From: Flavivirga sp. 57AJ16
GTDB lineage: Bacteria > Bacteroidota > Bacteroidia > Flavobacteriales > Flavobacteriaceae
Assembly (NCBI RefSeq): GCF_028736925.1
Contig: NZ_JAQZAT010000002.1
Location: 248,001-312,000 of the forward strand
Length of the DNA stretch: 64,000 bases
Direction: 5' to 3'
Below the pieces are notes generated by a model, which was not told the origin of the DNA, ran no database searches, and was given only the letters and a program-made list of their open reading frames with translations. Each line of letters opens with the position of its first letter. Within the stretch, counting starts at the first letter, position 1. Positions 2,531 to 22,953 of this stretch are shown one piece after another. A program made the translations under genes and the position numbers.

Positions 2531-2998
2531 TTATTCTAAGCGTCTATAGTTTTCTGCAAAAATAGGATGCCTTTCACTATCCATTTGAATTTGAGTAAAG
2601 GTGTTATCTTCCAAAATAATATCAAATATAAATTCATTTGAATTTTCTGTAATGTTCATTGATCGAGATCCATATTCAAGAACTTCAATTAACTGACCAT
2701 CTTCAATCTTATAATCACCATAGCCAAACCATTCAACGGAATCTGAAGTTCGCAACCTATTCCACATGACTTTAGTGCCAGAGTACATTTTAATTTGCTT
2801 TGTGGTAGCTGAGGATTTTATGGTATCTACCGAACCATCTTGTCTGTAATTTAAATAGCTAACAATTTCCCATGTTCCTTCAAGAGAAGGCGGCTTATCT
2901 GTGACTTCCATATTGTTTTTTTTCGAAACAGTTTCAGTGTTGTTTTTACAGGAAATAAAAAGAGATGTCGATATTAAAAGAAGAAGAAGTGATTTCAT
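2531..2998 (-). CDS. Lipocalin-like lipoprotein
   Basis: A 155-residue protein with a clear lipoprotein signal (Leu-rich core, lipobox LFISC, Cys17). After a short polar linker comes a segment starting LEGTWEIVSYL, a pattern typical of small Bacteroidetes lipocalin-like proteins whose barrel begins with a GxW motif. The rest is predicted beta-strands with a YGDYKIEDGQLIEV stretch. It probably sits at the outer membrane. The ligand is unknown, and the lipocalin fold is inferred from one motif and length. Confidence 0.7.
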   Translation of the reverse strand: MKSLLLLLISTSLFISCKNNTETVSKKNNMEVTDKPPSLEGTWEIVSYLNYRQDGSVDTIKSSATTKQIKMYSGTKVMWNRLRTSDSVEWFGYGDYKIEDGQLIEVLEYGSRSMNITENSNEFIFDIILEDNTFTQIQMDSERHPIFAENYRRLE

Positions 2999-3178
2999 AA
3001 TATATAGGATTTAAATGAAATTACTACAAGTTACGAAAAAACATGTATAAACTAATTGTTGTAGGTTAAAATTATATCTAATATGAAGATCTTCACATAA
3101 ATACAAAATGTGTTTAGTTTGGAAGCTATGATATATGTAATTTAGTGTTATAAATTTTTATAATAAGAGCTCATAAAA

Positions 3179-3209
3179 TTGTATATATTTTAATAAGGTT
3201 TTATTTTTG
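3179..3209 (+). promoter_or_regulatory. Bacteroidetes-type promoter upstream of the tRNA-Pro array
   Basis: TTG (3179-3181), a 20-bp spacer, and TATTTTTG (3202-3209) fit the Bacteroidetes consensus TTG-N19/20-TAnnTTTG. The expected transcription start falls just before 3221, where the first tRNA-like segment begins. No comparable promoter precedes the intact tRNA at 3819. Confidence 0.6.
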
Positions 3210-3220
3210 CCATATTAAAA

Positions 3221-3268
3221 CGGGATGTGGCGCAGTCCGGTTAGCGTATCACGCCGGTGGCGTGATGG
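3221..3268 (+). other. tRNA-Pro-like 5' part, copy 1
   Basis: Bases 1-26 equal those of the intact tRNA-Pro (acceptor 5' strand, D-arm). The anticodon arm differs but still forms a perfect five-pair stem (TCACG/CGTGA), with loop CCGGTGG lacking the invariant T33. The variable loop TGGTC is the same as in the tRNA. The T-arm and acceptor 3' strand are missing, so it cannot be a working tRNA. An in-frame ATG of the following nuclease ORF (3265) lies inside the structure. Confidence 0.85.
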
Positions 3269-3279
3269 TCCAAGTATGT

Positions 3280-3516
3280 ATGAGTTATGTTGTTTACATA
3301 TTGTATAGTGAAATACTTGACAGATACTATGCAGGTCAAACAAAGGACATTGTTGGACGTCTTGCCGTTCACAACCAAGGAGGAAAAAAATATACGACCA
3401 AGGGTATTCCCTGGAAGTTGATAAAAACATATAGATGTTCAGATCGTTCAGAAGCTGTCCGTTTAGAACGAAAAGTAAAAAAGAGAGGTATTGCAAGGTA
3501 CCTTCAAGATAAATAA
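3280..3516 (+). CDS. Small GIY-YIG family nuclease, copy 1
   Basis: A compact protein of 78 residues from the ATG at 3280 (MSYVVYILYS). The frame is open back to GTG 3262 and ATG 3265 within the tRNA-like segment. YVYIL near the N-terminus and YYAGQT about 12 residues later are the two halves of the GIY-YIG core. RLAVHN supplies the catalytic Arg region and LERKVKK the downstream Glu. This is the short UvrC-like/UPF0213-like type common in Flavobacteria, in which DNA nicking is presumed but rarely tested. It is fused in layout to a tRNA-Pro 5' part and duplicated perfectly in tandem. Role inferred: a selfish or homing-like nuclease of the tRNA locus. Confidence 0.8.
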   Translation: MSYVVYILYSEILDRYYAGQTKDIVGRLAVHNQGGKKYTTKGIPWKLIKTYRCSDRSEAVRLERKVKKRGIARYLQDK

Positions 3517-3519
3517 ATT

Positions 3520-3567
3520 CGGGATGTGGCGCAGTCCGGTTAGCGTATCACGCCGGTGGCGTGATGG
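3520..3567 (+). other. tRNA-Pro-like 5' part, copy 2
   Basis: Identical to the copy at 3221: tRNA-Pro acceptor 5' strand and D-arm, an altered but well-paired anticodon arm, the same variable loop, and no T-arm. It could be an RNase P-independent hairpin leader for the second nuclease ORF, or simply a duplicated remnant. Confidence 0.85.
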
Positions 3568-3578
3568 TCCAAGTATGT

Positions 3579-3815
3579 ATGAGTTATGTTGTTTACATAT
3601 TGTATAGTGAAATACTTGACAGATACTATGCAGGTCAAACAAAGGACATTGTTGGACGTCTTGCCGTTCACAACCAAGGAGGAAAAAAATATACGACCAA
3701 GGGTATTCCCTGGAAGTTGATAAAAACATATAGATGTTCAGATCGTTCAGAAGCTGTCCGTTTAGAACGAAAAGTAAAAAAGAGAGGTATTGCAAGGTAC
3801 CTTCAAGATAAATAA
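3579..3815 (+). CDS. Small GIY-YIG family nuclease, copy 2
   Basis: Identical in sequence to the protein at 3280 and placed exactly 299 bp later, four bases before the intact tRNA-Pro. It carries the same GIY-YIG core halves (YVYIL, YYAGQT), Arg and Glu positions. Because the tRNA starts directly after its stop codon, nuclease mRNA and tRNA are probably co-transcribed, and the tRNA would have to be cut out by RNase P. Confidence 0.8.
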   Translation: MSYVVYILYSEILDRYYAGQTKDIVGRLAVHNQGGKKYTTKGIPWKLIKTYRCSDRSEAVRLERKVKKRGIARYLQDK

Positions 3816-3818
3816 ATT

Positions 3819-3893
3819 CGGGATGTGGCGCAGTCCGGTTAGCGTACACGGCTGGGGGCCGTGTGGTCGCAGGTTCAAATCCTGTCATCCCGA
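3819..3893 (+). tRNA. tRNA-Pro (anticodon GGG)
   Basis: A complete 75-nt cloverleaf. The acceptor stem CGGGATG/CATCCCG is perfect with the C1-G72 pair usual for bacterial tRNA-Pro. The D-stem is GCGC/GCGT, the anticodon stem CACGG/CCGTG with loop CTGGGGG (anticodon GGG), and the T-arm GCAGG-TTCAAAT-CCTGT. The discriminator is A73 and CCA is not encoded. Its 3' end is the attachment site of the genomic island that follows. The upstream neighbour is the GIY-YIG tandem, so it has no obvious promoter of its own. Confidence 0.95.
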
Positions 3894-3894
3894 C
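3878..3894 (+). other. Attachment site at tRNA end (attL)
   Basis: AATCCTGTCATCCCGAC covers the 3' strand of the T-stem, the acceptor 3' strand and the discriminator of tRNA-Pro. Integration here keeps the tRNA intact. Confidence 0.85.
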
Positions 3895-3993
3895 GAACCC
3901 TATTTTTATAAAATTAAAACATTGTTAATTGTATGATTTTCAGTGTTTTAATTTTTTTTGATTTCAAAAGAAACCAATTAATATCAACTAAAA

Positions 3994-4014
3994 GGTGTAC
4001 TATTCGGTGAGTCA
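3994..4014 (+). promoter_or_regulatory. Candidate integrase arm-type site, left end
   Basis: GGTGTACTATTCGGTGAGTC lies between the tRNA and the integrase gene. GTGTACTATT and the following GGTGA recur at the far end of the island in the same orientation. The central CTATTCGGT also lies next to two other integrase remnants in the window (23077 and 50971). Confidence 0.5.
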
Positions 4015-4107
4015 TTTCTAATCGGAATTGTCGTAAATTTAAAGAGCTTTTAAGAGCAATTTGACTTTTGTTTTACAACTAAAATTGTTTAACTTAAAAC
4101 TCGTAAA

Positions 4108-5364
4108 ATGCAGACAAACAGTACCTTTTCAATCATTTTCTTCACAAGAAAACCTAAAGGTTTATCGGATGAATTATCAATTTATGCACGTGTAACAGTT
4201 AATGGAAAGCGTTCAGAAATTAGTTTAAAACGAAGCGTTCTAGTGAACGATTGGGATAATAATAAGGCTAGATGTAGGGGGAATACATCAAAAATAAGAC
4301 TTTTAAATGCCTATCTCGATGAGGTATATAGTAAATTATTGGATTGCCATAAGCAATTATTTGCGGAAGATAAAATGGTTTCTGCCAATTCAATAAAAGC
4401 TAGATTCTTGGGTGAAGATGAAAATCATAAGTCATTAAGAGATATTATTGAGTATCATAATTCAAACATGATAGATGTTTTAAAGTTTGGCACCATGAAG
4501 AATTATTATACTACTGAAAAGTATTTATATAAATTTTTGGATAATGAATTAAAGGTAAGCGATATTTATTTAAAGCAACTAAATCATAGATTCATTTGTG
4601 ATTTTGAGATTTTTTTAAGGAATAACAAGAATTCCAAGAATGAATTTACTTTAACCAATAATGGTGTCATGAAACATTTAGAACGCTTTAAAAAAATGAT
4701 AAATCTTGCTTGTAAATTGGAATGGATTAGCAAAAACCCATTTCAAATGTTCCAGTTAAAATTCAAAAAGTTTGATAGAGAGTATCTTTCAGAAAGAGAG
4801 TTGGAACTTATCGAAAATACATTTTTTACAAAAGAGGGTTTAGAACGAGTTAAGGACTGCTTTTTGTTTTCATGCTATACGGGTCTTTCTTATGTAGATG
4901 TCAAAATGCTAAAGAGCAATCATATTACTATGGGCATTGATAACAATTATTGGATTTTTACCAAAAGGGAAAAAACAAATGAAACGGTTAAGATTCCTCT
5001 TTTGCCTAAAGCTCTAGAAATTATAAACAAATACAAAGCCTTTTCCAAACATAATAATGGTGAAAAAGTATTGCCTATTTACTCTAACCAGAAAATTAAT
5101 GTTTATCTAAAGGATATAGCCGAAGATTGTGGTATTCATAAAAATCTAACCTTCCATGTTGCTAGACACACCTTTGCTACAACTGTTATGTTGTCTAATG
5201 GCGTGCCATTAGAAACCGTATCAAAGCTTTTAGGACACACAAAGCTATCTACAACACAAATCTATGCTAGGGTAGTAGAAACCAAAATAAGCGAGGATAT
5301 AAATAATCTATTGGATAGATTTAAAGCGAAAAGGCAACAGCACCAAGTACTAAAACCAAACTAA
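4108..5364 (+). CDS. Tyrosine recombinase / island integrase
   Basis: A 418-residue integrase with an N-terminal arm-binding region (about 1-100), a SAM-like core-binding domain (about 105-215) and a catalytic domain (about 225-395). The catalytic set is Lys near 286, HVAR (His350, Arg353), LLGH (His377) and nucleophile Tyr386. The position of the first catalytic Arg holds Ser261 (TGLSYVD), as in IntDOT-type Bacteroidetes integrases. It should excise and insert the island at the tRNA-Pro 3' end. The gene points away from the tRNA and is intact, so the island may still be mobile, although an excisionase was not recognised. Confidence 0.93.
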   Translation: MQTNSTFSIIFFTRKPKGLSDELSIYARVTVNGKRSEISLKRSVLVNDWDNNKARCRGNTSKIRLLNAYLDEVYSKLLDCHKQLFAEDKMVSANSIKARFLGEDENHKSLRDIIEYHNSNMIDVLKFGTMKNYYTTEKYLYKFLDNELKVSDIYLKQLNHRFICDFEIFLRNNKNSKNEFTLTNNGVMKHLERFKKMINLACKLEWISKNPFQMFQLKFKKFDREYLSERELELIENTFFTKEGLERVKDCFLFSCYTGLSYVDVKMLKSNHITMGIDNNYWIFTKREKTNETVKIPLLPKALEIINKYKAFSKHNNGEKVLPIYSNQKINVYLKDIAEDCGIHKNLTFHVARHTFATTVMLSNGVPLETVSKLLGHTKLSTTQIYARVVETKISEDINNLLDRFKAKRQQHQVLKPN

Positions 5365-5495
5365 TCTTTTTAAGGTAAAAAAAAGCTCTAATAGATATCC
5401 TGCTCATAAAGTAATAAAAGTCAGCTTTAGTAGAATGTGCTATAACGTTTCGCGGGTTTGCGAAATATCTCAAAACCGTTAGTATCAGTAGGTCT

Positions 5496-6281
5496 TTAAT
5501 TCCAGTTGCGAAGTGTAAAATCTATTTCATTCAATTTTTTCAATTCTATAAGCTCTGTAAATACGAAGCCTGTTCCAATAATTTCTCTAGCTTGATTTAT
5601 TAAATATTCCATATTAGAATCTGCTTTGTAAGTTGCTGCAATGAAGAAATTTAATCCGGTCATACTTAGATGATAAAAGCCGTATTCTTCTAAAATATTA
5701 AGTGTGTAATCATTAAAAGAAAGTTCAAATGGCGTTTCAAAATCTCCCATTAACCTCACTCCATCATTATTTTTTAAATAATATAAAGGTAGTTCACCAT
5801 TATCATGTCTTACAAACTGCCTTATTCTTTCAAATTTATTATCAAGTGCAAGTTGAGTGTTTCTGTGATATTCTTGAAGGAAAATGTTGTAAATGCCTCT
5901 TTTGAATTTTCGAGTTAGCTCATTTGCATATTGAGCGTTTCGAATATAGTCGACATTAAGTTTAAGTGTTCTGCTTGTGTGATAATAACTGAAAAATTGA
6001 GATTTAAAATTTTTCCAAGAATTTGAATCCTTCTTATGTATTAGCAAAAATTTATGGACATTGAAAAATTCTTTCAAGACTTTATCTACGGAAAACGTTA
6101 CTTTACTGAATTTGTCATCACTACCAAAAAAGCTATTACAAGAATCACAAATATCAAATCCTATATTGTGAGGATTTAAAGTCTTTGGAATTGTGTGTGG
6201 TTTTGTGTTGAATTCCACTTCTGGCTTTGATTGTAAACACCAAATACATTTCCCTTTTTTAATATATTCTGGTTTATTCAT
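5496..6281 (-). CDS. HNH endonuclease-like protein
   Basis: A 261-residue cytoplasmic protein with an N-terminal zinc/HNH signature: Cys12-x2-Cys15, His29 in HTIPK, then Cys45-x2-Cys48-Asn49. This spacing matches the HNH_5-like group in which two CxxC pairs hold zinc and the HxIPK His plus a later Asn form the beta-beta-alpha-metal nuclease site. The remaining 200 residues are alpha/beta with no recognised domain and may sense or bind a partner. It is the last of a minus-strand series of single genes with long spacers, near the integrase. A defence nuclease role is inferred from domain and context. Confidence 0.7.
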   Translation of the reverse strand: MNKPEYIKKGKCIWCLQSKPEVEFNTKPHTIPKTLNPHNIGFDICDSCNSFFGSDDKFSKVTFSVDKVLKEFFNVHKFLLIHKKDSNSWKNFKSQFFSYYHTSRTLKLNVDYIRNAQYANELTRKFKRGIYNIFLQEYHRNTQLALDNKFERIRQFVRHDNGELPLYYLKNNDGVRLMGDFETPFELSFNDYTLNILEEYGFYHLSMTGLNFFIAATYKADSNMEYLINQAREIIGTGFVFTELIELKKLNEIDFTLRNWN

Positions 6282-6358
6282 GGTTTCTCAAACTTGCTTT
6301 GGGAAATCAGCTATGATCTTCCGCGAGGAAATTCAGCTGCAATGAGCTATTCATTTTG

Positions 6359-7051
6359 TTACCTGCTGTTAATATTTAAATTTTCATTGAATTCGGTGAA
6401 CTTTGATATTTGACCTTCATAATTATTCTTAGTACTTCCTCCTTTTACTATTTTCTCTTCTTGAACAACAGATTCTATTCGAATGTAGATTGAAAATCCA
6501 ATATCAGGTTTTTCCATGAAGTCTTTTTTATTCTCTTTCCTTAGGATGAAGTTATTTTTATATAGGTGTGAATCATTATTTTCGATTGCTCTGAAATATG
6601 CTGACATAGATTTTCCTCCATTTTGTAAGTTGGCAATATATCTTTCCATAAAGTCAACTGTATAATCTAATTCACCAATTAACTGATTTATGTAAAAGCC
6701 CATAAAGATTGGTTTTTCAATTCTATCGTAATATCTTATCCTAAATGCATTTTGCAATATGTCTAAGAAAACAGGATCAAATTTTACGGTAACATCATTA
6801 TTAACTGTGGATAGAAGTTTTTTGAGTGATTCAAATCTGTCTAAATGGAAATGATATTTTTCCCTTTTTTTGAGATTAAATACAATAATAGCTTTCAGAT
6901 ATTTTTCGACTGATGTACTTGCAAGTGTTAGTCCCTGAATTATCAAATGGTTATTAAGTAATAAACGAGATGCAATATAATCGCGATAACCAAGGTCTAC
7001 TAGCCAATGTCCTTTATAAAGTTTTTCAGTCCATGTAATCGAATTGTTCAT
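6359..7051 (-). CDS. HEPN-like protein (230 aa)
   Basis: The first 150 residues look like an all-helical HEPN fold. ASTSVEKYLKAIIVFN is the typical second helix of HEPN proteins, and KREKYHFHLDRF supplies an R-x5-H that could be the HEPN catalytic Rx4-6H motif. The C-terminal 80 residues are polar and perhaps beta-rich, ending in a disordered Asn-rich tail. HEPN proteins are often toxin RNases or partners of nucleotidyltransferases, but no nucleotidyltransferase is adjacent. The spacers on both sides are long, so it is probably expressed by itself. The HEPN assignment is by eye and moderate. Confidence 0.55.
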   Translation of the reverse strand: MNNSITWTEKLYKGHWLVDLGYRDYIASRLLLNNHLIIQGLTLASTSVEKYLKAIIVFNLKKREKYHFHLDRFESLKKLLSTVNNDVTVKFDPVFLDILQNAFRIRYYDRIEKPIFMGFYINQLIGELDYTVDFMERYIANLQNGGKSMSAYFRAIENNDSHLYKNNFILRKENKKDFMEKPDIGFSIYIRIESVVQEEKIVKGGSTKNNYEGQISKFTEFNENLNINSR

Positions 7052-7197
7052 AGTAGTTTCATGTAACGGTTCGTCTTTGAATAGTTGCGTGGGTAGTAAT
7101 TAATTTTGCAAGTACACATCAAAATGAAAATCCACACGGATTTTTCCGAGTGGGCGAGAACCAAGAAAATATTTTTAAACGGTGTTAGCAATTGGCT

Positions 7198-7803
7198 TTA
7201 TTTTGTTAATACAACTATATATTTGTAATGAACAAATCCTGTTGTATTTGTTGATTTTACTCTTACTTTCACCCAATCTCCTATCATAGCTAGCAAAACT
7301 AATTCTTGGTATTTACTTAGTCTTTCCAAAATGTCAAAACTCGTACTAGGTCCTTTTCTTAAATTCAGGGTCAATGTATTTACCATTAATGTTTTTAAAT
7401 AATATTCAGAATTAATGTCATTAGGTAAATCATAAATTTCAGTTGAATTCAGATTATTATTTGATAAATAGGTTTTTATTTTATTATTCTGATTATAGTT
7501 AGAAGTACTAGTTGAAGGTGAACTTGGAGAATAATAAGTATTTCTTTTGGGAGTATAAGTTGGAGTATATGTTCTTCTACTTCCACCTGAACAAACACCA
7601 CAAGAACCACCACTATTGCAATATTTACATCTGCTACAATTTGTACAAGCTGAGCAATTAGATGAACCAGTACATCTTCCCCCTTCACCTTCACAACAAG
7701 ATGCAATAGCATTATTCTTTTGTCCAAATGAATTATTTGTTCCAAAAATTAAAATAATTAATGTGAAAATTCTTAATAGATTTAGTTCTAAAATTTTTTT
7801 CAT
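7198..7803 (-). CDS. Secreted Cys-rich protein with SH3b domain
   Basis: A 201-residue protein with a signal peptide (about 1-28, ending SFGQ). Next is a Gly/Ser/Cys-rich block (about 35-75) with ten Cys in short C-x2/3-C steps, then a Thr/Ser/Pro/Tyr/Asn-rich linker. The C-terminal bacterial SH3 domain (about 140-200) has LNLRKGPSTSFDILERL and GDWVKVRV, the usual SH3b landmarks for binding peptidoglycan or glycan. Proteins of this layout recur on Bacteroidetes mobile DNA with no assigned function. The Cys block could bind metal or form disulfides after export. Confidence 0.75.
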   Translation of the reverse strand: MKKILELNLLRIFTLIILIFGTNNSFGQKNNAIASCCEGEGGRCTGSSNCSACTNCSRCKYCNSGGSCGVCSGGSRRTYTPTYTPKRNTYYSPSSPSTSTSNYNQNNKIKTYLSNNNLNSTEIYDLPNDINSEYYLKTLMVNTLTLNLRKGPSTSFDILERLSKYQELVLLAMIGDWVKVRVKSTNTTGFVHYKYIVVLTK

Positions 7804-8268
7804 CTGATTTTTTCAGCTTGTTGCCAACTTGTTTATATATGGAACTTTTATCTTTTTATTCAATAATTTTTGGTGGGCTATGCGGAATTTTCGGTTGTTT
7901 TTCTCTTTTTTTATCCATTTTTCTTCATTTCGAATAAGAATAAAAAACAATTTAAATATCAAATGTATTGCTTTACAAAATATTGAATACGGAAAACCGT
8001 AAGCGTTCTGAAATAAAATGCTTAATTACTATTAGGGAGAAGTTAAATATACTAAATAATAGTAAGCAATTGCTCTTGTAAGATAGAAATAATTGTGAAT
8101 TTAGAATTATTACACAGAACACAAAAATCAGGAGTATTCCCAAAAATAAATTACTGAATTATAGAAAACTTACACACGAATCTCTGTGAAAATTGCTGAA
8201 ATGGAACTAATGTTGGGAATAGCAAGATTATAATTCATTTCAATTTTATCAGAATCAGGTTAATTTAA
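7804..8268. other. Gene-free spacer (465 bp)
   Basis: AT-rich spacer between the SH3b gene and the HEPN gene, both on the minus strand. The part nearest the SH3b start contains TTGCCAAC/GTTGGCAA, resembling the GTTA/TAAC-containing spacers of the neighbouring genes. No ORF, RNA gene or clear hairpin was found. Confidence 0.4.
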
Positions 8269-9072
8269 CTAATTCCATTTTTTTAATTGTAATAGGGCTG
8301 AATTCAAGTAATCTGTTAATTCGGGTAGTTTTTGAATTATAGGCAAACTTAAATTATAGTACTTTAATGGATTGAAATCTATCTCAGGGTATCTTGATTT
8401 GTTGTTATGATTATGTGAAAGTAAATTTGAAAAAAAAAGAATTAAGACATTATAATATTCTATTAAAGCATAATTAAAATGCTCTTTTGCATACTCTATT
8501 ACCTCATTTAGTTGATTTTCATTTAGCATTAAATCATTAAATTCATTTCTAGCTTCTATTGCCTTTTCAGGATTTATTTTATTAACTAAATCAAAAAATA
8601 AATTCATCTTGTCAATTAAACAGTCTTTAAATTCATTTGGAAGTTCGAAAGTGTATGAACTCAAATCATTAAGAGTTTTTAATACCTCATCTAATATTTC
8701 ATTTGAATATTCAAATATTTCTTTTCTTTTTGGTAATAAGGTTAAACCACTTTCTAAGTTATTTGAGTAATTAACCATATTTCCACTTCCAAATAATTTT
8801 TCAAATTCATAATTCTTCAAAAAATCCATTTCTTTTTGTCTTTCCTTTATGGAATTTATAAACAAATTTAAAGTATAGTGCCCAGTGTTATTGGCGTCTT
8901 TTTCAGAAACAAATGTTTTAACTATAAAGGCATAAGCTTTTAATCCTTTTTCAGAAGCTTGCTGAAAATGATAAAAAGAATTAGAATACATTTTATTTTC
9001 ATATAGAATCTTTGAAGTTTCTAAATCTTCAATTGCAATTGTAATCCATGAGTTGATGTAGTCTTTATTCAT
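8269..9072 (-). CDS. HEPN-domain protein, partner of the STAND NTPase
   Basis: The 267-residue protein opens with a classic HEPN helix pair (AIEDLETSKILYENKMYSNS, then FYHFQQASEKGLKAYAFI). The C-terminal half is helical and ends with an SRYPEIDFNPLKYYN stretch and further helices, unlike simple HEPN toxins. No clear Rx4-6H motif sits in the expected helix, so it may be a catalytically dead, scaffolding HEPN. Its ATG overlaps the stop of the upstream STAND gene by 8 bp (ATGAATAA), so the two are translationally coupled and should act together. A defence accessory or effector role is inferred. Confidence 0.7.
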   Translation of the reverse strand: MNKDYINSWITIAIEDLETSKILYENKMYSNSFYHFQQASEKGLKAYAFIVKTFVSEKDANNTGHYTLNLFINSIKERQKEMDFLKNYEFEKLFGSGNMVNYSNNLESGLTLLPKRKEIFEYSNEILDEVLKTLNDLSSYTFELPNEFKDCLIDKMNLFFDLVNKINPEKAIEARNEFNDLMLNENQLNEVIEYAKEHFNYALIEYYNVLILFFSNLLSHNHNNKSRYPEIDFNPLKYYNLSLPIIQKLPELTDYLNSALLQLKKWN

Positions 9073-12000
9073 TTGAAAATTTTTCCTCGAAATACTTTAG
9101 ATTTTGCAATTCATTTTGATCATCAAACCAAAGGATATATTTTCTAGTCTTTTGATTATGAATAACTTCTCTAATATTATCATTTAAAGGATTTTTTTTT
9201 ATAAAATGTGTCGCTAACCAAAACAACTTCATCTTTTTATTTTTAAGCTCTTTAAACAAAACATCTTTTTTAAGTAAAATTATTTCTTGAGAATCACCAT
9301 AACTATATCTTTCAGTATTAATCTGATGTTTAAATCCAATTTGATTATTGTCAATGTCAAAATAGGTGTTATTATCTAATTCCGTAATTTTAAGTATTTG
9401 TCTAATTTTTTTTGATGGGATTATTATTTCTTCTTCACCATCAACACTATTTCTCATTGTTCTTGTCAAACAATTAAAAGCAAATTTGCTTTCAGCGAAT
9501 TCAGTCACATTATTGTTTTCGCCAATCCAATTCATCCAAAATAAATTAGATGTATTAGTATAAGTATCTGTATCTGGACTTGCAAAATGACTTATATAAA
9601 TTGATTTTAAATTTTTATTCAATTGTTTTGAAAAATATTTAAAATCTTCTTCAGTAATTAAATAACCATAACAATCGATAAAAGAATTAATAGTCTTTGA
9701 TGAATTTGTAAGTGCTGTACTTTGATAGATGGACAAATATTCATTTACAATCTCCGAATCAAAATCAAGATTATTATAGATGAGCCAATTATTAAAATCT
9801 ATTTTTGGGTCTTTGCTAACCATCTTATTTATTTCATCTTGAATATCTTTTGAATTGTCAATTTCAGGAGCTAATTCTTCTTTTATTACCCATAATGGAG
9901 GATTAAAGTATTCATCCACTTGGCTTTCAAGACTACTTTGTAAATCTTCTATAGGATTATTAATATGTACAATTTTAGAATAATCATCAATCCAATCAAA
10001 TTTCCTGCTCTCTTTATCAAATTTATAAGGTAAATAGTCTGATAAATAACCTTTTAAATAATGAACAGCCAACCAAACATACTTTTCTTCATATGTGAAT
10101 TCTTTGCTTTTACTTCCGTGACTTGCATCAGTATATGAACTTCCTTTTACTCTATCAAAACCCAAAGATTTAATATACGCAATTGCTGTTGACATACCCC
10201 AAGTTCTTGAAGATTCACTACCTTTTAAAACCGAACTGTATTTGGAATAAAAATCACTAATAAAAGGATTACTTTTTTCATATGAATGTGAATTGAATCC
10301 AGTAGCTATTGATAAAAAATCATCATAAGCTTCTTTTATGACATACCAAGATAAATCGTGAGCAATAGGATAAAACTCTTCTCTAGGATTTTTAATGAAT
10401 TTTTCATCAACTTCTAAAATTATAAAATCGTCTTTTATGGTTGGTCTTGCTTTCTCAACCTCATTTTCTGATATAAGGCTAAATTGAAATGCTCTTTCAA
10501 CTATTGATCTAAAGCCGTATCTAACAATGACATTTCTAAATTTATTAGTATCATTAAAAACATTATTTAAACACCACAAAGCAATTTCAAGAACAGCATT
10601 CTTGTCTTTGCATTTAGTTGCAACACCCAAAGTAATCGATGCTAAATCTTCATTAATTTGAGGATCTTTAATTGGCACCATTAAATCTAAAAGTTTCTTG
10701 AATTCAATAGGTAAAATCAAAGCCCATTTAGTTAGTTTAATCCTTATATTTTCTCTTAATTTTTGGTCAATAGTTGTAAGTCCCCATGTATATACCAATG
10801 GAAGTCCATTAAACATATCTGTTTCATCTAAATCAAAATTATCATTAAGAATGCTTTTTATAGACCAATCATTCAGCTCATATTCTTTTACTTTCAATTT
10901 TGTTAAAACTAAATTCTTTTCAGTTCCATCAAGACCCGACCAAAACTTATCTCGTTCAAAAACACTTGGAATATTTTTAAGAATATTGTGAAGAAACATG
11001 GCATTAAAAGCACTCTCATTATCATAAGAAAGTGGTATAATTAAATCTTGTAAAATTTTAAACCTTTTAAGGTAATCTTCATTAAATATTTGTGTTATCC
11101 AATCTTTAAATTTATTACTTAATTTATTTGGAGCTAAAGACAATGTGATTAATTGAAGTTCAAAAATTTCACTTTCAGAAAATCCTTTTGTCAAAAAATT
11201 ATCAAAACCAATAAGTTTTTGATTCTTTATAAATACATCAGTAATAATGTCTTCGATGATTTTACGATTTGGTATAAAATCTATATAGGAATTATTTATA
11301 TCATCTAACTCATTTGACAATGGTAATGGCTTAAAAATAGAATCTGGTAAACAATCAATTTCCTCATTTATTATTGAATGACTAATTTTATTTGATACAA
11401 TAGTTTCAAGTATTGATTGGTAACTAAAATTATAGAAACTTTCTTTTGATTTTAATATTGAATTAGTTTTTTTTTCTCTTTCATATTTTATAAGAATTCC
11501 GTTATTTGATAAAAATTCAATTAAAAGTTCTATTTCATTATTATCTAAATACTTTAATTTCTTTTCGATTTCTAAATCAAAAATGTGGGTATGACTTACT
11601 TCTGAATTATAATAAAATAAATCAGATATTATGTTTAAGAAATCTAGAACAGGTTTTATTGATTTAGATTTTTTAGTTTCTAGTGATTCTAAATATTCAT
11701 CATTTATTCTTTCAACTTTTAAATTAATAAGTTTAGAAATGGCAGTTTGAACCACATCATTACCTTTAATTGTTGAACCTCTATAGTTTTCGCAAAATAA
11801 TTTTAAAGCAAATAAACTATCTAATCCTTTTACTAATTGATGATTTGCAATGTTAATATTATATTTCTTGAAATAATCATTTGAAACATCTTCTACTTTT
11901 ACATCACCTTCTCTTTTTAATCTTAATTCCCCGTATTGTTTTTTATAAGCTGGTAACTTTTGATTATTATAAAAATATTCTCTTGCGCTAAAAACAAAAC

Positions 12001-13417
12001 GAATCCTTTTGAATTTATTAGTTATTTCAATTGTTTCATTAATTCTGTCGTACCAATTTGTTTCGTTTGAAAAGTCTTCATCAAGACCATCAATACAAAT
12101 CAAAACTTTTGTATTTTCAGCTGCTTTAATATTATCAAAAACTAATTGACAATCTTTTCTAACAGCAATTGTTTCGAGTGCATTGAAAATCTCGTTTTTA
12201 TTCCAATTAATCAATTCCAATTCTTTGGATAATAATTGTGTCCAATCTATAGAATTAGCTCCTTTTGCTTGAATTAATATAGCTGGTGCTGATTTTTTTA
12301 CGCATTCTTCAACAGCATAAGCCAAGCCAAGTGTTTTTCCTGTTCCAGGCTTACCTAAAATTAAACTAGTTGATACTAGAGTTAAATCGTTTTCAATCTC
12401 TAAATATTTATTAACAATCTCTGTATTAAGTTCTCTTAAACAAATTTTTAAATTTTGATAAATAGGTTTCTGAAGATCTGTAGGATTTATAGTTTCAAGT
12501 ATTTCAACAGCTTCATAAATAGTGTTTAAAATTGTTAGTTCCTCCTCGTCATTTATGTTTAAATTTATTTCAACTCCATTTATTAATTTTGTTTGTAATT
12601 CTGTTGAACTTTTTATTAAGTCCTCAAGAAAACAATTAATTATTTCAAGATTTTTCTTGAGTTCTTCTGAATTTAAAGTTACATTGATAAACCTGTTAGA
12701 AATTCTTAAAGTATAATTAATCTTATTTTTAAGGTCAAGTATTTTGGTGACTGTTTTTTTTCTAAACGGTAAACTATTAAGTTGTTTGTCTATTAAATTT
12801 TGAATATCTCCTTTGGTATGCAAATCGCCAACATATCTTTCTTTTAGCCAGTAATTAGTTTTTTGCAAGTCAAATTTATCTTTTAAAAAATTGGAATGAA
12901 TTACTTCTTTTTCAAACCAATATTTATTTACCCCCTCATTTTCTGGAAATTGTAATTCGTTTAAAATAGTTTGCTCAAACCACCAAGTAATTTTAACGTT
13001 GGGTAAAGATGCTTTTATTTCTTTTTCAAAATTTCTAATCCTTACATCTTCACTGTTTTGAGTTGGTTTTTTACCTCTACCAATTTTAATAGAACTAACA
13101 TTATGAGGAATACAAATGATATATTCGATGATATTTGGTCTAATATCTAATGCTCCTGTTATGGATTTTCTTATTTGATTGATTTCGTTATTATCTAATG
13201 CTTGTTTAAACCATTTTGACTGGATCGCAATGAAATTTCCATTTGATAGTTTGCCATAAGCTTCGATTCCGCCATCTCCACCAGCACCATTTATTACTTT
13301 AAACTCATCTAATGTAGCCGCATAGTTTCTGGATAAATATCTCTCGAATAATTGGTTACATAAAGTCTCAAATGAATTTTGGTAACTACCTCTATAAGTA
13401 TTAAATGAATCCCACAT
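9065..13417 (-). CDS. Mrr-type nuclease/STAND NTPase, Avs-like
   Basis: A 1450-residue protein. Residues 1-150 form a restriction-endonuclease-like fold: Glu17, GGDGGIEAY (Asp48) and IAIQSKWF (Gln66, Lys68) make the Mrr PD-(D/E)xK pattern. A STAND/AAA-type NTPase follows, with Walker A GKPGTGKT (355-362), Walker B VLICIDGLDED (438-448) and a FVFSARE sensor segment near 474-480. The last ~900 residues are helical repeat-like with no known domain, and could be the sensor. Effector-NTPase-sensor order and size resemble antiviral STAND proteins (Avs4 also carries an Mrr-like nuclease), but the coupled HEPN gene is not part of the Avs types I know. Inference: phage-sensing abortive defence. Confidence 0.75.
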   Translation of the reverse strand: MWDSFNTYRGSYQNSFETLCNQLFERYLSRNYAATLDEFKVINGAGGDGGIEAYGKLSNGNFIAIQSKWFKQALDNNEINQIRKSITGALDIRPNIIEYIICIPHNVSSIKIGRGKKPTQNSEDVRIRNFEKEIKASLPNVKITWWFEQTILNELQFPENEGVNKYWFEKEVIHSNFLKDKFDLQKTNYWLKERYVGDLHTKGDIQNLIDKQLNSLPFRKKTVTKILDLKNKINYTLRISNRFINVTLNSEELKKNLEIINCFLEDLIKSSTELQTKLINGVEINLNINDEEELTILNTIYEAVEILETINPTDLQKPIYQNLKICLRELNTEIVNKYLEIENDLTLVSTSLILGKPGTGKTLGLAYAVEECVKKSAPAILIQAKGANSIDWTQLLSKELELINWNKNEIFNALETIAVRKDCQLVFDNIKAAENTKVLICIDGLDEDFSNETNWYDRINETIEITNKFKRIRFVFSAREYFYNNQKLPAYKKQYGELRLKREGDVKVEDVSNDYFKKYNINIANHQLVKGLDSLFALKLFCENYRGSTIKGNDVVQTAISKLINLKVERINDEYLESLETKKSKSIKPVLDFLNIISDLFYYNSEVSHTHIFDLEIEKKLKYLDNNEIELLIEFLSNNGILIKYEREKKTNSILKSKESFYNFSYQSILETIVSNKISHSIINEEIDCLPDSIFKPLPLSNELDDINNSYIDFIPNRKIIEDIITDVFIKNQKLIGFDNFLTKGFSESEIFELQLITLSLAPNKLSNKFKDWITQIFNEDYLKRFKILQDLIIPLSYDNESAFNAMFLHNILKNIPSVFERDKFWSGLDGTEKNLVLTKLKVKEYELNDWSIKSILNDNFDLDETDMFNGLPLVYTWGLTTIDQKLRENIRIKLTKWALILPIEFKKLLDLMVPIKDPQINEDLASITLGVATKCKDKNAVLEIALWCLNNVFNDTNKFRNVIVRYGFRSIVERAFQFSLISENEVEKARPTIKDDFIILEVDEKFIKNPREEFYPIAHDLSWYVIKEAYDDFLSIATGFNSHSYEKSNPFISDFYSKYSSVLKGSESSRTWGMSTAIAYIKSLGFDRVKGSSYTDASHGSKSKEFTYEEKYVWLAVHYLKGYLSDYLPYKFDKESRKFDWIDDYSKIVHINNPIEDLQSSLESQVDEYFNPPLWVIKEELAPEIDNSKDIQDEINKMVSKDPKIDFNNWLIYNNLDFDSEIVNEYLSIYQSTALTNSSKTINSFIDCYGYLITEEDFKYFSKQLNKNLKSIYISHFASPDTDTYTNTSNLFWMNWIGENNNVTEFAESKFAFNCLTRTMRNSVDGEEEIIIPSKKIRQILKITELDNNTYFDIDNNQIGFKHQINTERYSYGDSQEIILLKKDVLFKELKNKKMKLFWLATHFIKKNPLNDNIREVIHNQKTRKYILWFDDQNELQNLKYFEEKFSNE

Positions 13418-13512
13418 TTGTTATTATTCTAGGTTAATTAACTCTTTTTTAGTAGGTTTTCAAAGCCTTTCTCCAGTATTAAATATTGTTTATGAAGTCT
13501 ATTTTTGTTGTT

Positions 13513-14610
13513 TTATTTTGCTCTTAAAAGTTCTAATAGTCTGAAATTCAGATATAACTTCTCTTTGCCAACTTGCTCACTTTTTAAGAACCCGTGATTT
13601 TCTAATTCCTTAAGATAATTCCCCACTGTTTTTAGATTTCCTAAACCTACCTTTTCTAATTGGTTTCTTTTGGTGTAAGGCAATCTAAATAATTCTTCCA
13701 TTAAATCTTTGGAATATATTTTAGGCAATTTATTTTGTATTTCTGTTGCCATATGATTCATTAGTTCTTCTATTTTAGCAATCTGCTCCCTTCCTTTTAA
13801 TGCTGTTTGTTCTACCATATCCAGCATAAAAATAATCCAATCTTGCCAATTTTCTTCTTCAGTTACTTTTCTTAAATTGGTGTAATACTCGGCTTTATGT
13901 TGGATAATATAATTACTTAAAAATAATGCTGGCAATTCCAATAAACCAGTCATTTTGAGATATAACAATAAAATGATTCTCCCAGTACGTCCGTTCCCGT
14001 CAAAAAATGGATGTATGGCTTCGAACTGATAATGAATGACTGCCATTTTTACTAATGGGTCAATAGTGTCTTCTGCATGGATAAAGTCTTCTAAATTTTT
14101 TAGTTTTTCTCTTATGACGTTCTCTCCTTCGGGCGGTGTATAAACCACTGTATTATTTGCAGGGTTTTTTAATTGTGTGCCTGGTGCATTTCTAATACTA
14201 GATTGATTTTCTTTAATAATCTGTGCTAAAGCAATGAATAGATTCGTGTTTAAAATGGGACGTTTTTCAATTTGTTCCACCCCATACCATAATGCATCTT
14301 TATAATGTATAACTTCTTTAGTGGCTGGATTATCATTTTTCTTTTCGGCTATGGAAGCTTTGAATAATTCGTCTTGGGTGGTAATGATGTTTTCAATAGC
14401 AGAACTGGCCTGTGCTTCTTGTAAGTTGATGGTGTCAATAAATAACGTCGGATTAGGTAAATTGGTTATAGCTCCTTTTAGCTCTGACAAAGCTCTACTA
14501 GCACTGATAGTTTTTTTTAGAATGACCATATTTTCTATTTCCATTTTAGGTGGCAATAGTGGTAAACTGTTATATGGTATTTCTGGATTATATATTGATT
14601 TGCTATTCAT
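13513..14610 (-). CDS. Fic family protein with inhibitory helix and winged-helix tail
   Basis: A Fic-domain enzyme, predicted to transfer AMP from ATP to protein hydroxyls. From the ATG at 14610 it has 365 residues. The frame continues upstream to a TTG at 14658, but the ATG fits Fic families better. HPFFDGNGRTGR (about 200-211) is the full HxFx(D/E)GNGRxxR active site. SSAIEN near residue 69-74 matches the (S/T)xxxE(G/N) inhibitory motif, placed N-terminally as in class II Fic proteins that self-regulate. The C-terminal 60 residues (KRNQLEKVGLGNLKTVGNYL) form a winged helix. It stands between the STAND gene and an XRE gene. Confidence 0.92.
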   Translation of the reverse strand: MNSKSIYNPEIPYNSLPLLPPKMEIENMVILKKTISASRALSELKGAITNLPNPTLFIDTINLQEAQASSAIENIITTQDELFKASIAEKKNDNPATKEVIHYKDALWYGVEQIEKRPILNTNLFIALAQIIKENQSSIRNAPGTQLKNPANNTVVYTPPEGENVIREKLKNLEDFIHAEDTIDPLVKMAVIHYQFEAIHPFFDGNGRTGRIILLLYLKMTGLLELPALFLSNYIIQHKAEYYTNLRKVTEEENWQDWIIFMLDMVEQTALKGREQIAKIEELMNHMATEIQNKLPKIYSKDLMEELFRLPYTKRNQLEKVGLGNLKTVGNYLKELENHGFLKSEQVGKEKLYLNFRLLELLRAK

Positions 14611-14798
14611 ACTTGCACTCTTGAACAAGGGTGCTTTTCGCCCTTGTTTTATGTTCAAGTGTAAATATAGTAATTTTTTACTCTCGTTTCATTTATGTAG
14701 GTAAAATTTGCCTTCGTTGGATTAAAAAAAAATTAGAAAGCTTTGTTCACTAGGTTTGTGCAATACTAAATAAGAAATTTATTTCTATTTCAAGAAGT

Positions 14799-15017
14799 TT
14801 ATTCTTTTAATAATTTTAAGTCTTTATATACTTCTTTTAATAATTCACCTGGATCTACATCAATAGCCAAAGCAATTAAATAAAGTTCATCAGCACGCAA
14901 CTTAGTTGATTCATTAGAACTCAATTGAGAAAGTCTAGCCTGACTTATTCCAGTACGCCTAGAAACCATTGCTCTATTCACAGATTTTTTTGTAAGATAT
15001 AATCCTAAAGATGTCAT
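14799..15017 (-). CDS. XRE-family helix-turn-helix regulator
   Basis: 72 residues, nearly all one Cro/CI-type HTH domain: AMVSRRTGISQARLSQLSS is the helix-turn-helix, followed by RADELYLIALAIDVDPGELL, the conserved XRE C-terminal helices. It is divergent from the HEPN gene at 15170 across a 150-bp AT-rich gap and probably binds there. It could repress the 15170-16683 pair in toxin-antitoxin style or act as the island regulator. Confidence 0.85.
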   Translation of the reverse strand: MTSLGLYLTKKSVNRAMVSRRTGISQARLSQLSSNESTKLRADELYLIALAIDVDPGELLKEVYKDLKLLKE

Positions 15018-15169
15018 GAATATTTCGAATTTATATAGATAAATATACTTTGAATATATAAAAATGTAGAATTTCTAAAGTTTAATTTTGAATTTTGATA
15101 GATTATGTATAGATTTGTTTAGATATTCTAAAGAATACTTAAGAAATCTAACATTCAAAAGCAAAAGAT

Positions 15170-16333
15170 ATGGACGAGGAAATTTACACTAAACAAGAAC
15201 AGATTATAGATAAACTAAAATCTCTTTTAGAAATTAAATATGTATATAAAACAAGAACTAAAAAGGAAGGTTTCTTTAAGCCTCTATTAATTGTGATACT
15301 GAAAGGAAACTGTTCTTCCTTAACCAATGAATTATCCTCCATGGTTGCAAAAATATTTCAGGATGAAACGGACTTTTTGTACCGAATATTCTCCTTTGAA
15401 TATGCCTATCAACAGTTAAAAGAAGAAAACCTATTTTTTGTATATGGGTGTACTTGGGATAAAATAATATTTCATAATACTAATTTAGAATTAGACAGCT
15501 TTCATGAGTATTACGTTACTGAAAAAACACTTAATAATATTCAATCCCTTTTCGAAAGGGAACGAGATAAAATAGCAGCCTTTTTGGACGGTGCGACCTT
15601 TTTTATTGAAAAAAATAATCTATCCCATGCCGCTTATATGCTGCATCAATATATAGAACTATGGTTTCGCTTTGTCTCTCTTTTTACAATGGGCAAAGAG
15701 CGTAAATGTCATAGTATTAAGGAACTTCAAACCTATATAAAAACATTTGATCCAGAACCGGGCAACCTTTTCAATACAGAAATAGAGGAGGAGCAACACC
15801 TTTTAAAATTATTAGATGATGCTTATATAACGACACGCTATGAAAACAATTACCATATCAACTTGGAACAAATCTATAGAATATTGGAGAAAGCCAATAA
15901 AATGGAATCCTTGGCTACGTCATTGTTTAAAATCAAATTGGATGCCTGTATTGTTGAAGTAGTCAATATTAAAGAAATCAAAGTTCCCAAAGAACAAAGT
16001 TCAGTACCAAATAACACAGAATTATTGAGTTTCATAAAATCCCTATCCAAAAAGGATTTCTCTTTTTTAACACCCTATCCCTTTAAAAAGGGACATTATA
16101 CCATTGGAATAGTAACGGAAGGCTATTTAGAAACCTCTTTTATGATTTCGAATCTGTTAAAGGTATGCATCATTGCCATGGAAGCCGATTACTGTTCAAC
16201 ACGTTCCATACCTGATCCAGAACATAACATTAGAGAGGTTTTAGGCTATGTTTTGGACATGATACCCCATAATGAAATGGAACTGTTGGATGTTATCAGA
16301 GATTTAACTTTAGAACCAGAAACTAACAGCTGA
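15170..16333 (+). CDS. HEPN-domain protein (387 aa)
   Basis: Three parts can be seen. The N-terminal ~140 residues are alpha/beta (LLIVILKGNCSSL, FFVYGCTWDKIIFH), possibly a degenerate nucleotidyltransferase-like domain. A central HEPN domain lies at about 150-270 (ERDKIAAFLDGATFFIEKNN, then LSHAAYMLHQYIELWFRFVS and HSIKELQTYI). The C-terminal segment (about 295-387) is repeated in the next gene. Similar proteins occur on Bacteroidetes conjugative elements, but the function is unknown. It overlaps the next gene by one base (TGATG), so they form an operon. A divergent XRE gene probably controls both. Confidence 0.7.
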   Translation: MDEEIYTKQEQIIDKLKSLLEIKYVYKTRTKKEGFFKPLLIVILKGNCSSLTNELSSMVAKIFQDETDFLYRIFSFEYAYQQLKEENLFFVYGCTWDKIIFHNTNLELDSFHEYYVTEKTLNNIQSLFERERDKIAAFLDGATFFIEKNNLSHAAYMLHQYIELWFRFVSLFTMGKERKCHSIKELQTYIKTFDPEPGNLFNTEIEEEQHLLKLLDDAYITTRYENNYHINLEQIYRILEKANKMESLATSLFKIKLDACIVEVVNIKEIKVPKEQSSVPNNTELLSFIKSLSKKDFSFLTPYPFKKGHYTIGIVTEGYLETSFMISNLLKVCIIAMEADYCSTRSIPDPEHNIREVLGYVLDMIPHNEMELLDVIRDLTLEPETNS

Positions 16334-16683
16334 TGAAAGAAAAAAAGAAACATAGAAACAAATTAAAGGCCATTAAGAAGCACATTGAAAACTTCCCTGG
16401 AGTAAACTCGGAGGCTTATGGAAACAGGACAAGAAAGACTATCGGATTTGAAGTGTTCGATAATGAGGATATTACAAGTAGCATTTCGGCACTTTTGGAG
16501 GTGTGTTATTTCGCATTGGATGGCAATGGCACTTTCATTTATCCCAAGCATAGCAATAAGACACCGATATCCAGTGTGACCAAGGTACTCGAAATAGTCA
16601 TCGACCTCTTGCCACATGACCAAATGTTCTGCATGGATAAGGTCACTGAAATCCTTTCAAAGGACAAAAAAAAGGATAATTAA
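16333..16683 (+). CDS. Small partner sharing the C-terminal domain of the HEPN protein
   Basis: 116 residues, very basic N-terminus. From residue 45 on it aligns by eye with the end of the upstream protein: SSISALLEVCYFALDGNG matches its SFMISNLLKVCIIAMEAD, and VLEIVIDLLPHDQMFCMDKV matches VLGYVLDMIPHNEMELLDVI. The two genes therefore share a roughly 60-residue domain and are translationally coupled (TGATG). It may be a free copy of the domain that binds or neutralises the HEPN protein. I do not recognise the family. Confidence 0.6.
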   Translation: MKEKKKHRNKLKAIKKHIENFPGVNSEAYGNRTRKTIGFEVFDNEDITSSISALLEVCYFALDGNGTFIYPKHSNKTPISSVTKVLEIVIDLLPHDQMFCMDKVTEILSKDKKKDN

Positions 16684-16948
16684 AAGGAAAGCCAAGGTAA
16701 TTTTATTAGATGAATGCCCACAACACCGAACAAAGCAATGTCCATGGTCGGCAAGGGGAAAGGTGTTTCACGCCGTGCAGAGGGTAATCCGTTTTTAAAG
16801 CGATGGATTTTTAGGCTGGCTTTTTAAAAACGAATTTTTGTATGGGTTCGACTTTGAGCGAGGGGAATCCAATGCTTTAAAAATGAAGCAAGCTCGCCCA
16901 AAGCGAGTGCGGTAGTTTTTATAAAATTTTCAATTTAAAACAAAATTA
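16684..16948. other. Gene-free segment
   Basis: No convincing gene. The segment includes GCAAGCTCGCCCAAAGCGAG, with a short CTCGC/GCGAG hairpin. It runs up to the stop codon of the interrupted winged-helix gene. Confidence 0.35.
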
Positions 16949-17158
16949 TTAATTGTAACTTGGGGTTAAGGCATAGGTCTTGGTTCTTCCCCGACCAATT
17001 TGATAAAGCACCTTATGATAAATAAGTTAGTCTATTTCTCTATTAAGAGTTGCAATACTAATAGGTTCTGGCAATAATGTTCTAATTGTAGATAAGCTTG
17101 CCTTTTCTTGAGTGGTAATAATATTTATAATGTTGGTTTGTCTATTGGTAAGATCCAT
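16949..17158 (-). pseudogene. Winged-helix (Fic-associated type) gene with in-frame stop
   Basis: Reading leftward from the ATG at 17158, 69 codons are in one frame with a single internal TAA at codon 44 (17027-17029). The product reads MDLTNRQTNIINIITTQEKA, a helix-turn-helix with TLLPEPISIATLNREID, the stop, and then KVLYQIGRGRTKTYALTPSY. This is the small winged-helix protein often found with Fic genes in Bacteroidetes. A GAA-to-TAA change would explain the stop. Both halves keep good coding sense, so the mutation looks recent, or the stop may be suppressed. Confidence 0.6.
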
Positions 17159-17902: not shown

Positions 17903-18061
17903 GTGAAAAATTGGAATAATGCTGTAAATGACTTAACAATTGGACCAGGTTCAAATAATGACGCTGTAAAAATTTTGAAAAATATTGGTAATGAAATTGA
18001 ACGAACACCAATTAATGTAGTTAAAGAAGTAAAGAAAATTCTTCCTAGAATTACCTTATAA
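17903..18061 (+). pseudogene. C-terminal gene fragment (about 52 codons)
   Basis: An open stretch beginning at a GTG, upstream of which the frame is closed at 17882. It reads KNWNNAVNDLTIGPGSNNDA and continues to a TAA with a basic end (KEVKKILPRITL). The composition resembles the tail of a polymorphic-toxin-like or secreted protein cut off at its 5' end. It lies 10 bp before the next decayed gene and could have been its partner. The family is not recognised. Confidence 0.4.
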
Positions 18062-18071
18062 AATTGATATT

Positions 18072-18444: not shown

Positions 18445-18525
18445 GATGGTTGAATTCTTTGGAAGGTGCAGTTCAGTTTATGTATTATTAAGTTACTATT
18501 ATTTCAAGGAAATTTAGAAAAAACC

Positions 18526-22877: not shown

Positions 22878-22896
22878 AGTGTACTATTAGGTGAAT
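22878..22896 (+). promoter_or_regulatory. Candidate integrase arm-type site, right end
   Basis: AGTGTACTATTAGGTGAATC repeats GTGTACTATT and GGTGA of the left-end site at 3994, same orientation, 58 bp before the right attachment repeat. Confidence 0.5.
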
Positions 22897-22953
22897 CTAC
22901 TTAAATAAAATCACTTAAAATGCTATAAAACAGTGTTTTATAAAAAATAAGGT

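Follow-up and report, generated by a model that had tools for sequence, protein, structure and literature searches.

The tRNA-Pro Locus

The window analyzed here, a 64,000-nucleotide stretch of the genome of Flavivirga sp. 57AJ16 (G000), contains an intact tRNA-Pro(GGG) gene preceded by two identical units, each of which begins like the tRNA and ends in a small open reading frame (Table 1). As an earlier examination of the letters and reading frames (the sequence-only reading) had noticed, the 5′ start of the tRNA occurs three times at an exact period of 299 nt: positions 3221–3547 and 3520–3846 agree base for base, and the third start, at 3819, follows the two 299-bp units. Each unit consists, in order, of nucleotides 1–28 of tRNA-Pro, a 17-nt perfect hairpin, TGGTC, and an ORF for a 78-aa GIY-YIG protein that stops 3 nt ahead of the next tRNA start. 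In both units the hairpin, TCACGCCGGTGGCGTGA, takes the place of the 17-nt native anticodon arm, CACGGCTGGGGGCCGTG, and the TGGTC behind it is tRNA-like. The sequence-only reading was right that a perfectly paired arm had been substituted behind a retained tRNA 5′ part, and that the loop of the replacement lacks T33. The ATG that it saw within the arm exists in frame (3265), but is probably not the start, because alignments of the family begin 15 nt downstream, at ATG 3280 (78 aa).

Table 1. Coordinates of the tRNA-Pro(GGG) locus in the window
Feature	Position	Strand	Description
Promoter-like TATTTTTG	3202..3209	+	Fits TAnnTTTG; now upstream of unit 1; the same flank directly abuts the tRNA in congener G300
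Remnant 1	3221..3270	+	tRNA-Pro nt 1-28 (3221-3248), hairpin 3249-3265 at the anticodon-arm position, then TGGTC
GIY-YIG ORF 1, 78 aa	3280..3516	+	PF01541; the open frame from GTG 3262 is 84 aa
Remnant 2	3520..3569	+	Same as remnant 1; nt 1-28 3520-3547; hairpin 3548-3564
GIY-YIG ORF 2	3579..3815	+	Same as ORF 1
Intact tRNA-Pro(GGG)	3819..3894	+	ARAGORN 3819-3894; Rfam 3819-3893, 61.6 bits

Judging from its fit to TAnnTTTG, which we take to be the Bacteroidota −7 promoter consensus, TATTTTTG is probably the promoter of the tRNA. Neither upstream tRNA copy is called by ARAGORN or by Rfam; at gathering scores Rfam finds only tRNA in the window, and no self-splicing RNA, as in a group I intron, around the ORF. 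Considered as RNA, the remnant is no more stable than its own shuffles (z −0.05). The pattern TCACGC-N1-8-GCGTGA occurs at four places in the 4.9-Mb genome, three of them within tRNA-Pro remnants beside such ORFs, and its presence in the remnants is therefore not a matter of chance. The same count rules out mobile palindromes dispersed through the genome as the source of the hairpin.

Empty Sites within the Genus

Congener G300 presents the same locus without units. It aligns with window positions 2531–3270 (743 columns, 91.8%; 2531–3220 is flank) and runs straight into an intact tRNA; in the window, exactly 598 additional bp stand at base 1 of the tRNA. The insertion is clean: removing the units gives the gene as it stands in G300. 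The live tRNA-Pro(GGG) is identical at 76 of 76 positions to that of G299, G307, G248, and G300, all of which are without a unit at this gene, so nothing in the sequence of the live tRNA protects it.

A second orthologous locus, at tRNA-Pro(TGG), is occupied in G248; in the window's genome the ORF is absent and about 100 bp of other DNA, perhaps older and remnant-like, lies there. Presence and absence alleles at the same site, as known from free-standing homing endonucleases, are thus found both in the comparison with G300 and in that of G248 with G000. As for the cut site that homing would alter in an occupied allele, the arm of the remnant is altered and the sequence of the adjoining live tRNA is unchanged. 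G248 has units at both of its TGG genes, and these two loci can be aligned over unit and tRNA only. Across the genus, 6 of 12 genomes contain a match at E ≤ 1e-8. G306 holds an array of three units with in-frame stops that is decaying.

Older traces were read by eye. Remnant-like decayed DNA precedes both TGG genes of G000 (L003, L157), as if layers had been left by earlier rounds of insertion. At another locus (L007, 1385–1848), a decayed 5′ copy of tRNA-Leu(CAA) with palindromes in its D arm is followed by a GIY-YIG ORF and an intact tRNA-Leu, the terminal tRNA copy being one that our script did not detect.

The GIY-YIG Protein

That the small ORF behind the remnant encodes a GIY-YIG protein holds good: its 78 aa form a single short domain (PF01541, E = 1.8e-13), and the nearest solved sequences in profile searches are UPF0213 proteins (PDB 1zg2, E = 2.4e-11; 1ywl, E = 2.2e-7). 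Tyr17, Arg27, His31, and Glu63, which we take to be the catalytic positions of GIY-YIG enzymes, are kept in 171, 171, 172, and 171 of 172 sequences, respectively, and median dN/dS is 0.24 (32 pairs from 14 chosen loci) or 0.21 (279 pairs from 30 chosen loci). Retention of the catalytic residues together with a dN/dS near 0.2 argues that the protein is under selection; by sequence, it has the intact nuclease domain expected of a homing endonuclease.

The lineage of the protein predicts its target tRNA, as far as the tree can tell: the target anticodon requires 39 changes, compared with 92.9 when labels are shuffled (157 labelled of 172 rows; host relatedness uncontrolled). Transfer between hosts, considered as a cause of incongruence, is not shown by the counts for host genus, which are 36 changes for 34 states (59 rows). 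With a single query protein, one weak match was obtained among 50,697 phage records and one, carrying no annotation, among 72,556 plasmid records; a single-sequence search of viral contigs gave three partial matches. Carriage by phages or plasmids was set aside on these counts, and the near-absence from such records leaves the gene with no known vehicle for transfer between cells. PADLOC, used to look for known defence genes, gave weak matches to candidate models only (best 1.3e-5).

Association with tRNA Genes

The protein is matched at E ≤ 1e-12 in 38 of 299 genomes of the family, and we followed it further in two sets of loci. The named set comprises the best 80 of 188 relatives from 84,980 named species genomes; 62 of the 74 hosts with a family name are Flavobacteriaceae. 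A tRNA gene lies within 700 bp in 76 of the 80, and in 73 it is tRNA-Pro. Two others were called Ser (L075, L115) because the contig breaks off within the Pro gene or ahead of it, and one is Arg; among the four loci with no tRNA in reach, three are within 160 bp of the end of the stretch and one (L074) has remnants visible by eye. For the phylum set, 392 genomes of Bacteroidota (the phylum judged from named homologues) were considered, at least 129 of which match the profile at E ≤ 1e-15. Its 90 loci, 30 chosen by the tool (the window's own included) and 60 by hand, come from the upper part among the matches listed, and with that scope 78 of the 90 have a tRNA within 700 bp. The isotypes are Pro 21, Asp 12, Gly 12, Ser 9, Val 6, Lys 4, Asn 4, Ala 3, Ile 2, and one each of Cys, Met, Thr, Gln, and Phe, counts that are approximate because several of the tRNAs that ARAGORN takes to be live are probably remnants (L087, and L188, whose "tRNA-Cys," the only Cys in the set, is probably a remnant called as a tRNA).

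Chance alone would place a tRNA this close in some 1–2% of cases (a rough figure that assumes about 50 tRNA genes in 5 Mb). Both sets together hold 16 loci with no tRNA in reach, 8 of them no more than 160 bp from the end of the stretch, and the ORF is on the strand of the tRNA in all 156 placed cases (both sets plus L003 and L007). The tie between homologues and tRNA genes on which the sequence-only reading had staked its proposal is upheld by 76 of 80 and 78 of 90 loci. Such ORFs do lie beside tRNA genes in other Flavobacteria, as it had tentatively stated, but they are limited neither to Flavobacteria nor to proline.

On the far side of the ORF, an 18-nt terminal copy of the tRNA (≤3 mismatches) is present in 86 of 154 loci (41/76 named, 45/78 phylum) and absent by this strict test in 68; among control tRNAs, one of 40 has such a copy on either side within 700 bp. 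A looser test (≤4 mismatches, wider reach) finds the far-side copy in 95 of 156. The strict test misses many remnants because the D arm is also altered or the boundary differs. By script, the copy was found in at least one locus for twelve isotypes plus Ile. Arrays of two or more ORFs occupy 20 of 80 stretches in the named set and 25 of 89 in the phylum set.

Tandem tRNA remnants also occur with no ORF (L036, L056, L087, L099, L102; up to five 81-bp copies), and some of them flank one live tRNA on both sides; we propose that they are relics or non-autonomous forms. In L087, the arm-replaced remnants at 1915–1989 and 2238–2312 are called tRNA-Pro by ARAGORN, both falsely. Such miscalls, in L087 and probably in L188, are a hazard for annotation.

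The Altered Arm

In 65 of the 74 named loci with a live tRNA in reach, a hairpin whose perfect stem is at least 6 bp long stands in place of at least one arm of the remnant, a test that shuffled arms pass in 115 of 13,800 trials. The other 9 loci fail it, some through misplaced anchors (L073, L083, and L088, for example, in which the eye finds a hairpin), and the count is confined to the named set because the anchors do not work at many loci for Asp, Gly, and Val in the phylum set. Which arm is replaced depends on the remnant. The sequence-only reading had taken it to be the anticodon arm, and this is mostly so among the 20 GGG 5′ remnants (anticodon arm 15, T arm 2, none qualifying 3), but in most UGG remnants that arm is retained and it is the T arm that has been replaced. 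In these 44 UGG 5′ remnants, the T arm is replaced and the anticodon arm kept in 24, the T arm is replaced and the anticodon position is unfound or changed in 6, both arms are replaced in 4, the anticodon arm only in 7, and no arm qualifies in 3. Of ten 3′ remnants, seven have the anticodon arm replaced and six keep the T arm. Loops of replaced arms are 0–6 nt long and never the tRNA-like 7, and the stems TCACGC, TCCCGC, TGGCGC, and CTCCGA tend to track protein clades. By eye, the D arm of many UGG remnants has also been replaced or enlarged by further hairpins.

Two Mirror Forms

The units occur in two mirror arrangements. In the 5′ form, a remnant is followed by the ORF and the live tRNA; in the 3′ form, the live tRNA comes first, often with a terminator, and then the ORF and a 3′ remnant (e.g., L071, L083, L091, L118). 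Judged by the side of the nearest tRNA, 64 named loci are of the 5′ form and 12 of the 3′ form (2 of the 12 being contig-end cases), against 15 and 63 in the phylum set, and on the protein tree the side of the tRNA changes 20 times, compared with 52.8 in shuffles (157 labelled rows). The idea that the element duplicates the 5′ part of the tRNA is accordingly correct here, but not for the mirror form, which retains the 3′ part behind the ORF. Likewise, homologues are usually accompanied by a remnant with a changed arm, as had been supposed, but it is not always a 5′ segment and not always the anticodon arm.

In the 5′ form, TAnnTTTG was found within 25 nt before the live tRNA in 0 of 49 cases; before the leftmost copy it is present in 12 of 53, and before element-free tRNAs in 7 of 39. 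The live tRNA of the 5′ form is thus probably transcribed through the element. Where a UGG tRNA lies within 40 nt, the stop codon of the ORF is at or beyond the first base of the live tRNA in 33 of 34 cases; with both anticodons considered, it is beyond the end of the live tRNA in 1 of 37.

For the 39 5′ remnants that can be aligned, agreement is 25.05 of 26 nt with their own live tRNA and 21.88 with the live tRNAs of other genomes, and at informative sites they follow their own live tRNA and not the consensus in 84 of 89 cases (65 of 70 when L087, whose remnant ARAGORN took for a tRNA, is left out). This agreement would require either donors of the same species or later homogenization. Among 43 3′ forms that have a terminal copy, 20 lose the likeness where the tRNA ends (≤60% in the 20 nt that follow), which would be expected of a remnant with its native flank retained; in the other 23 the likeness continues past the tRNA, often through the terminator, which counts against this. 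Over all 43, the median exact run past the tRNA is 6 nt.

Other Elements in the Genome

Behind the same tRNA, window positions 3895–22970 include a tyrosine recombinase gene (4108–5364) and end in a 17-nt copy of the tRNA 3′ end (22954–22970), and a related integrase occupies the same place in G307; from these features the region is a probable integrative island. Two minus-strand genes behind the integrase (5496–7051) have weak, below-cut-off HNH and HEPN matches and are possibly island cargo for defence.

Elsewhere in the genome, tandem small GIY-YIG ORFs occur with no called tRNA (L008, L009, and L011 at G000:C12:62.6-63.9 kb; L005 and L006 at G000:C22:6.4-7.6 kb), each between extragenic palindromes, GATTCCTGC..GCAGGAAT in the first group and CCCTGAGCTTGTCGAAGGG in the second. 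The pattern GATTCCTGC..GCAGGAAT occurs at 76 places in the genome, and two further GIY-YIG matches (L010, L012) have such places within 1.6 kb on both sides. These tRNA-free nucleases may be tied to the spread of the palindromes.

Discussion

The explanation that we favor, and think more likely than not to be correct, is that the unit is a minimal homing-like element residing in a tRNA gene, which it rebuilds. In tRNA genes that hold no unit, the nuclease would cut at or close to whichever arm is altered in its own remnant, the anticodon arm or the T arm depending on the clade, and the break would be repaired from an occupied copy by way of short stretches of homology to either side. Half of the tRNA, on one side of the break, would stay behind as a remnant whose hairpin arm can no longer be cut, the element would supply the missing half, and one intact tRNA would remain. 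Cutting by the nuclease, movement from cell to cell, and immunity of the altered arm are things we infer. A common plan for the two mirror forms appears to follow the same lines: the arm marks the presumed break point, one side is left over with an altered arm, and the other is made whole. The proposal of the sequence-only reading, a homing-like element aimed at tRNA genes, is supported in part, by the link to tRNAs, the clean empty site, the common arrays, and the tracking of target by protein, but it did not foresee the mirror forms, the T arm, or the other isotypes.

In classical homing, insertion destroys the target site. Here the live tRNA beside the units retains the presumed target unchanged, which counts against our explanation. 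Because the intact tRNA would stay cuttable, the explanation predicts arrays: repeated cutting of the live tRNA and repair from a sister copy would add units, giving arrays such as the exact 2 × 299 bp seen here. Also weighing against it are the agreement of remnants with their own live tRNA and not with a foreign donor, the lack of a known vehicle, and the 68 of 154 loci where the strict test detects no far-side copy. The palindrome poses a further difficulty. Any change of sequence could give immunity, so a perfect palindrome exceeds what is needed, and immunity alone is no explanation for it.

A serious rival is that the hairpin is the protein's own cognate site for binding or cutting, and that new copies of the element arise from the remnant by way of single-stranded or cruciform DNA, in the style of IS200/IS605-type systems, which recognize hairpins. 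Several observations favor it. Changes in the stems preserve pairing (of 29 distinct anticodon-arm hairpins, 16 have A-T and 13 have C-G at position 3, but these were chosen for stems of at least 6 bp, and the choice of perfect stems biases the shuffle control of paired changes); similar stems reappear in different arms and isotypes; and other small GIY-YIG ORFs of this genome sit among palindromes with no tRNA. Within one anticodon, hairpin class also follows the protein tree (30 changes against a mean of 36.9, 0 of 300 shuffles; 90 rows), a signal that is modest and uncontrolled for host relatedness. This explanation leaves both the position of the hairpin at an arm of the tRNA copy and the restriction of protein clades to one tRNA unaccounted for; we regard it as unlikely.

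It is less probable still that the units have no present mobility and go back to an ancient duplication, in tandem, of parts of the tRNA, which carried the ORF as a passenger and grew by ordinary unequal recombination. Arrays with no ORF do exist (the five 81-bp tRNA 5′ copies of L036; L056; L087), and both tRNA copies are local in origin or homogenized. Set against this are the selection on the ORF and its retained catalytic residues, the same layout at many isotypes with matching protein clades, and the occupation in G248 of two loci with unlike flanks.

We give little credence to the proposal that the arm was altered only so that the remnant would not mispair with the live tRNA when both are in one transcript, the ORF having a host role in tRNA supply. 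When the native arm is restored to the remnant in silico, native pairing of the live tRNA falls by more than 0.05 in 25 of 46 5′-form loci and rises in none. A scrambled arm, however, does about as well as the hairpin, so RNA misfolding goes only a little way as a reason for a hairpin; the 3′ form is without trend (1 better, 1 worse of 7), and patchy presence and decayed units speak against a host role.

The recombinase 213 bp behind the tRNA, with its 17-nt copy of the tRNA 3′ end, raises the thought that the tRNA copies are scars of its action, which we consider highly improbable. Tyrosine recombinases use tRNA 3′ ends, whereas here the 5′ end is duplicated with an ORF inside, and G307, with a related integrase at the same tRNA and no GIY-YIG unit, separates integrase from element and rules out such an origin. 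Least credible is an artefact of draft assembly (52 contigs, two identical units), which as a general explanation is already contradicted by arrays in genomes of few contigs: two units in G299 (1 contig), five in G601 (1), and four in G495 (5).

Parts of the proposed homing-like cycle are already known, namely an endonuclease ORF with a duplicated gene part in fungi and a GIY-YIG enzyme multiplying a tRNA segment in phages. In fungal mitochondria (Allomyces atp6; Glomus atp6, atp9, cox2, and nad3), mobile endonuclease ORFs are described together with a duplicated gene end, and a complete gene can remain beside the left-over (PMC3630166). Our units likewise place an endonuclease ORF and a partial gene copy in an essential gene and leave one complete gene. 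The fungal examples in that account concern protein genes of mitochondria, with an inserted part that is divergent from the native one (PMC3630166); the present element differs in its bacterial tRNA genes, 78-aa nuclease, hairpin arm, mirror forms, and tandem arrays, and its gene part is not foreign to the host gene but local or homogenized, as the agreement at 84 of 89 sites indicates. SegB of T-even phages, a free-standing GIY-YIG nuclease adjoining tRNA genes, is implicated in breaks within tRNA sequences and makes tandem arrays of tRNA and nuclease gene by recombination (PMC13096335). In these respects the two arrangements are alike, but that description mentions no altered tRNA half or rebuilt tRNA, and our genes lie on chromosomes and are all but missing from the phage records that we searched. 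Integrative elements of tRNA genes also have partial and complete tRNA copies at their ends, and those described in PMC9897764 are about 9–23 kb long, whereas our unit measures about 300 bp, has a single ORF, and carries no integrase.

As for the protein, it shares with UPF0213 (1zg2, 1ywl) one short GIY-YIG domain with no separate DNA-binding domain, but the record names of that family carry no link to tRNA. The text of a 2006 survey of the GIY-YIG superfamily lacks "bacteroid" and "cytophaga," and its three tRNA passages are an Slx1-like fusion with a tRNA methyltransferase domain and two references (PMC1564403). Among the literature matches listed, with subscription journals mostly and bioRxiv wholly outside coverage, no title or abstract describes the arrangement in bacterial tRNA genes.

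With more than 100 related genes at many tRNAs, this looks like an undescribed family of tiny selfish elements that spare the gene they enter. More tentatively, and as a possibility that we hold somewhat short of conviction, we suggest a phylum-wide class of self-contained homing elements of about 300 bp and one 78-aa protein, whose clades are each fixed on one tRNA and which insert at an arm from either side, rebuild the gene, and mark the left-over half as their own with a perfect, clade-specific hairpin. If this is true, a common and unrecognized class of selfish element in bacteria gains entry to important RNA genes without the help of an intron or an integrase, using nucleases whose tRNA-gene targets are specific to the clade. 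It would explain partial or odd tRNAs that gene finders miscall, and how a 78-aa nuclease with no DNA-binding domain finds its site would become a testable matter.
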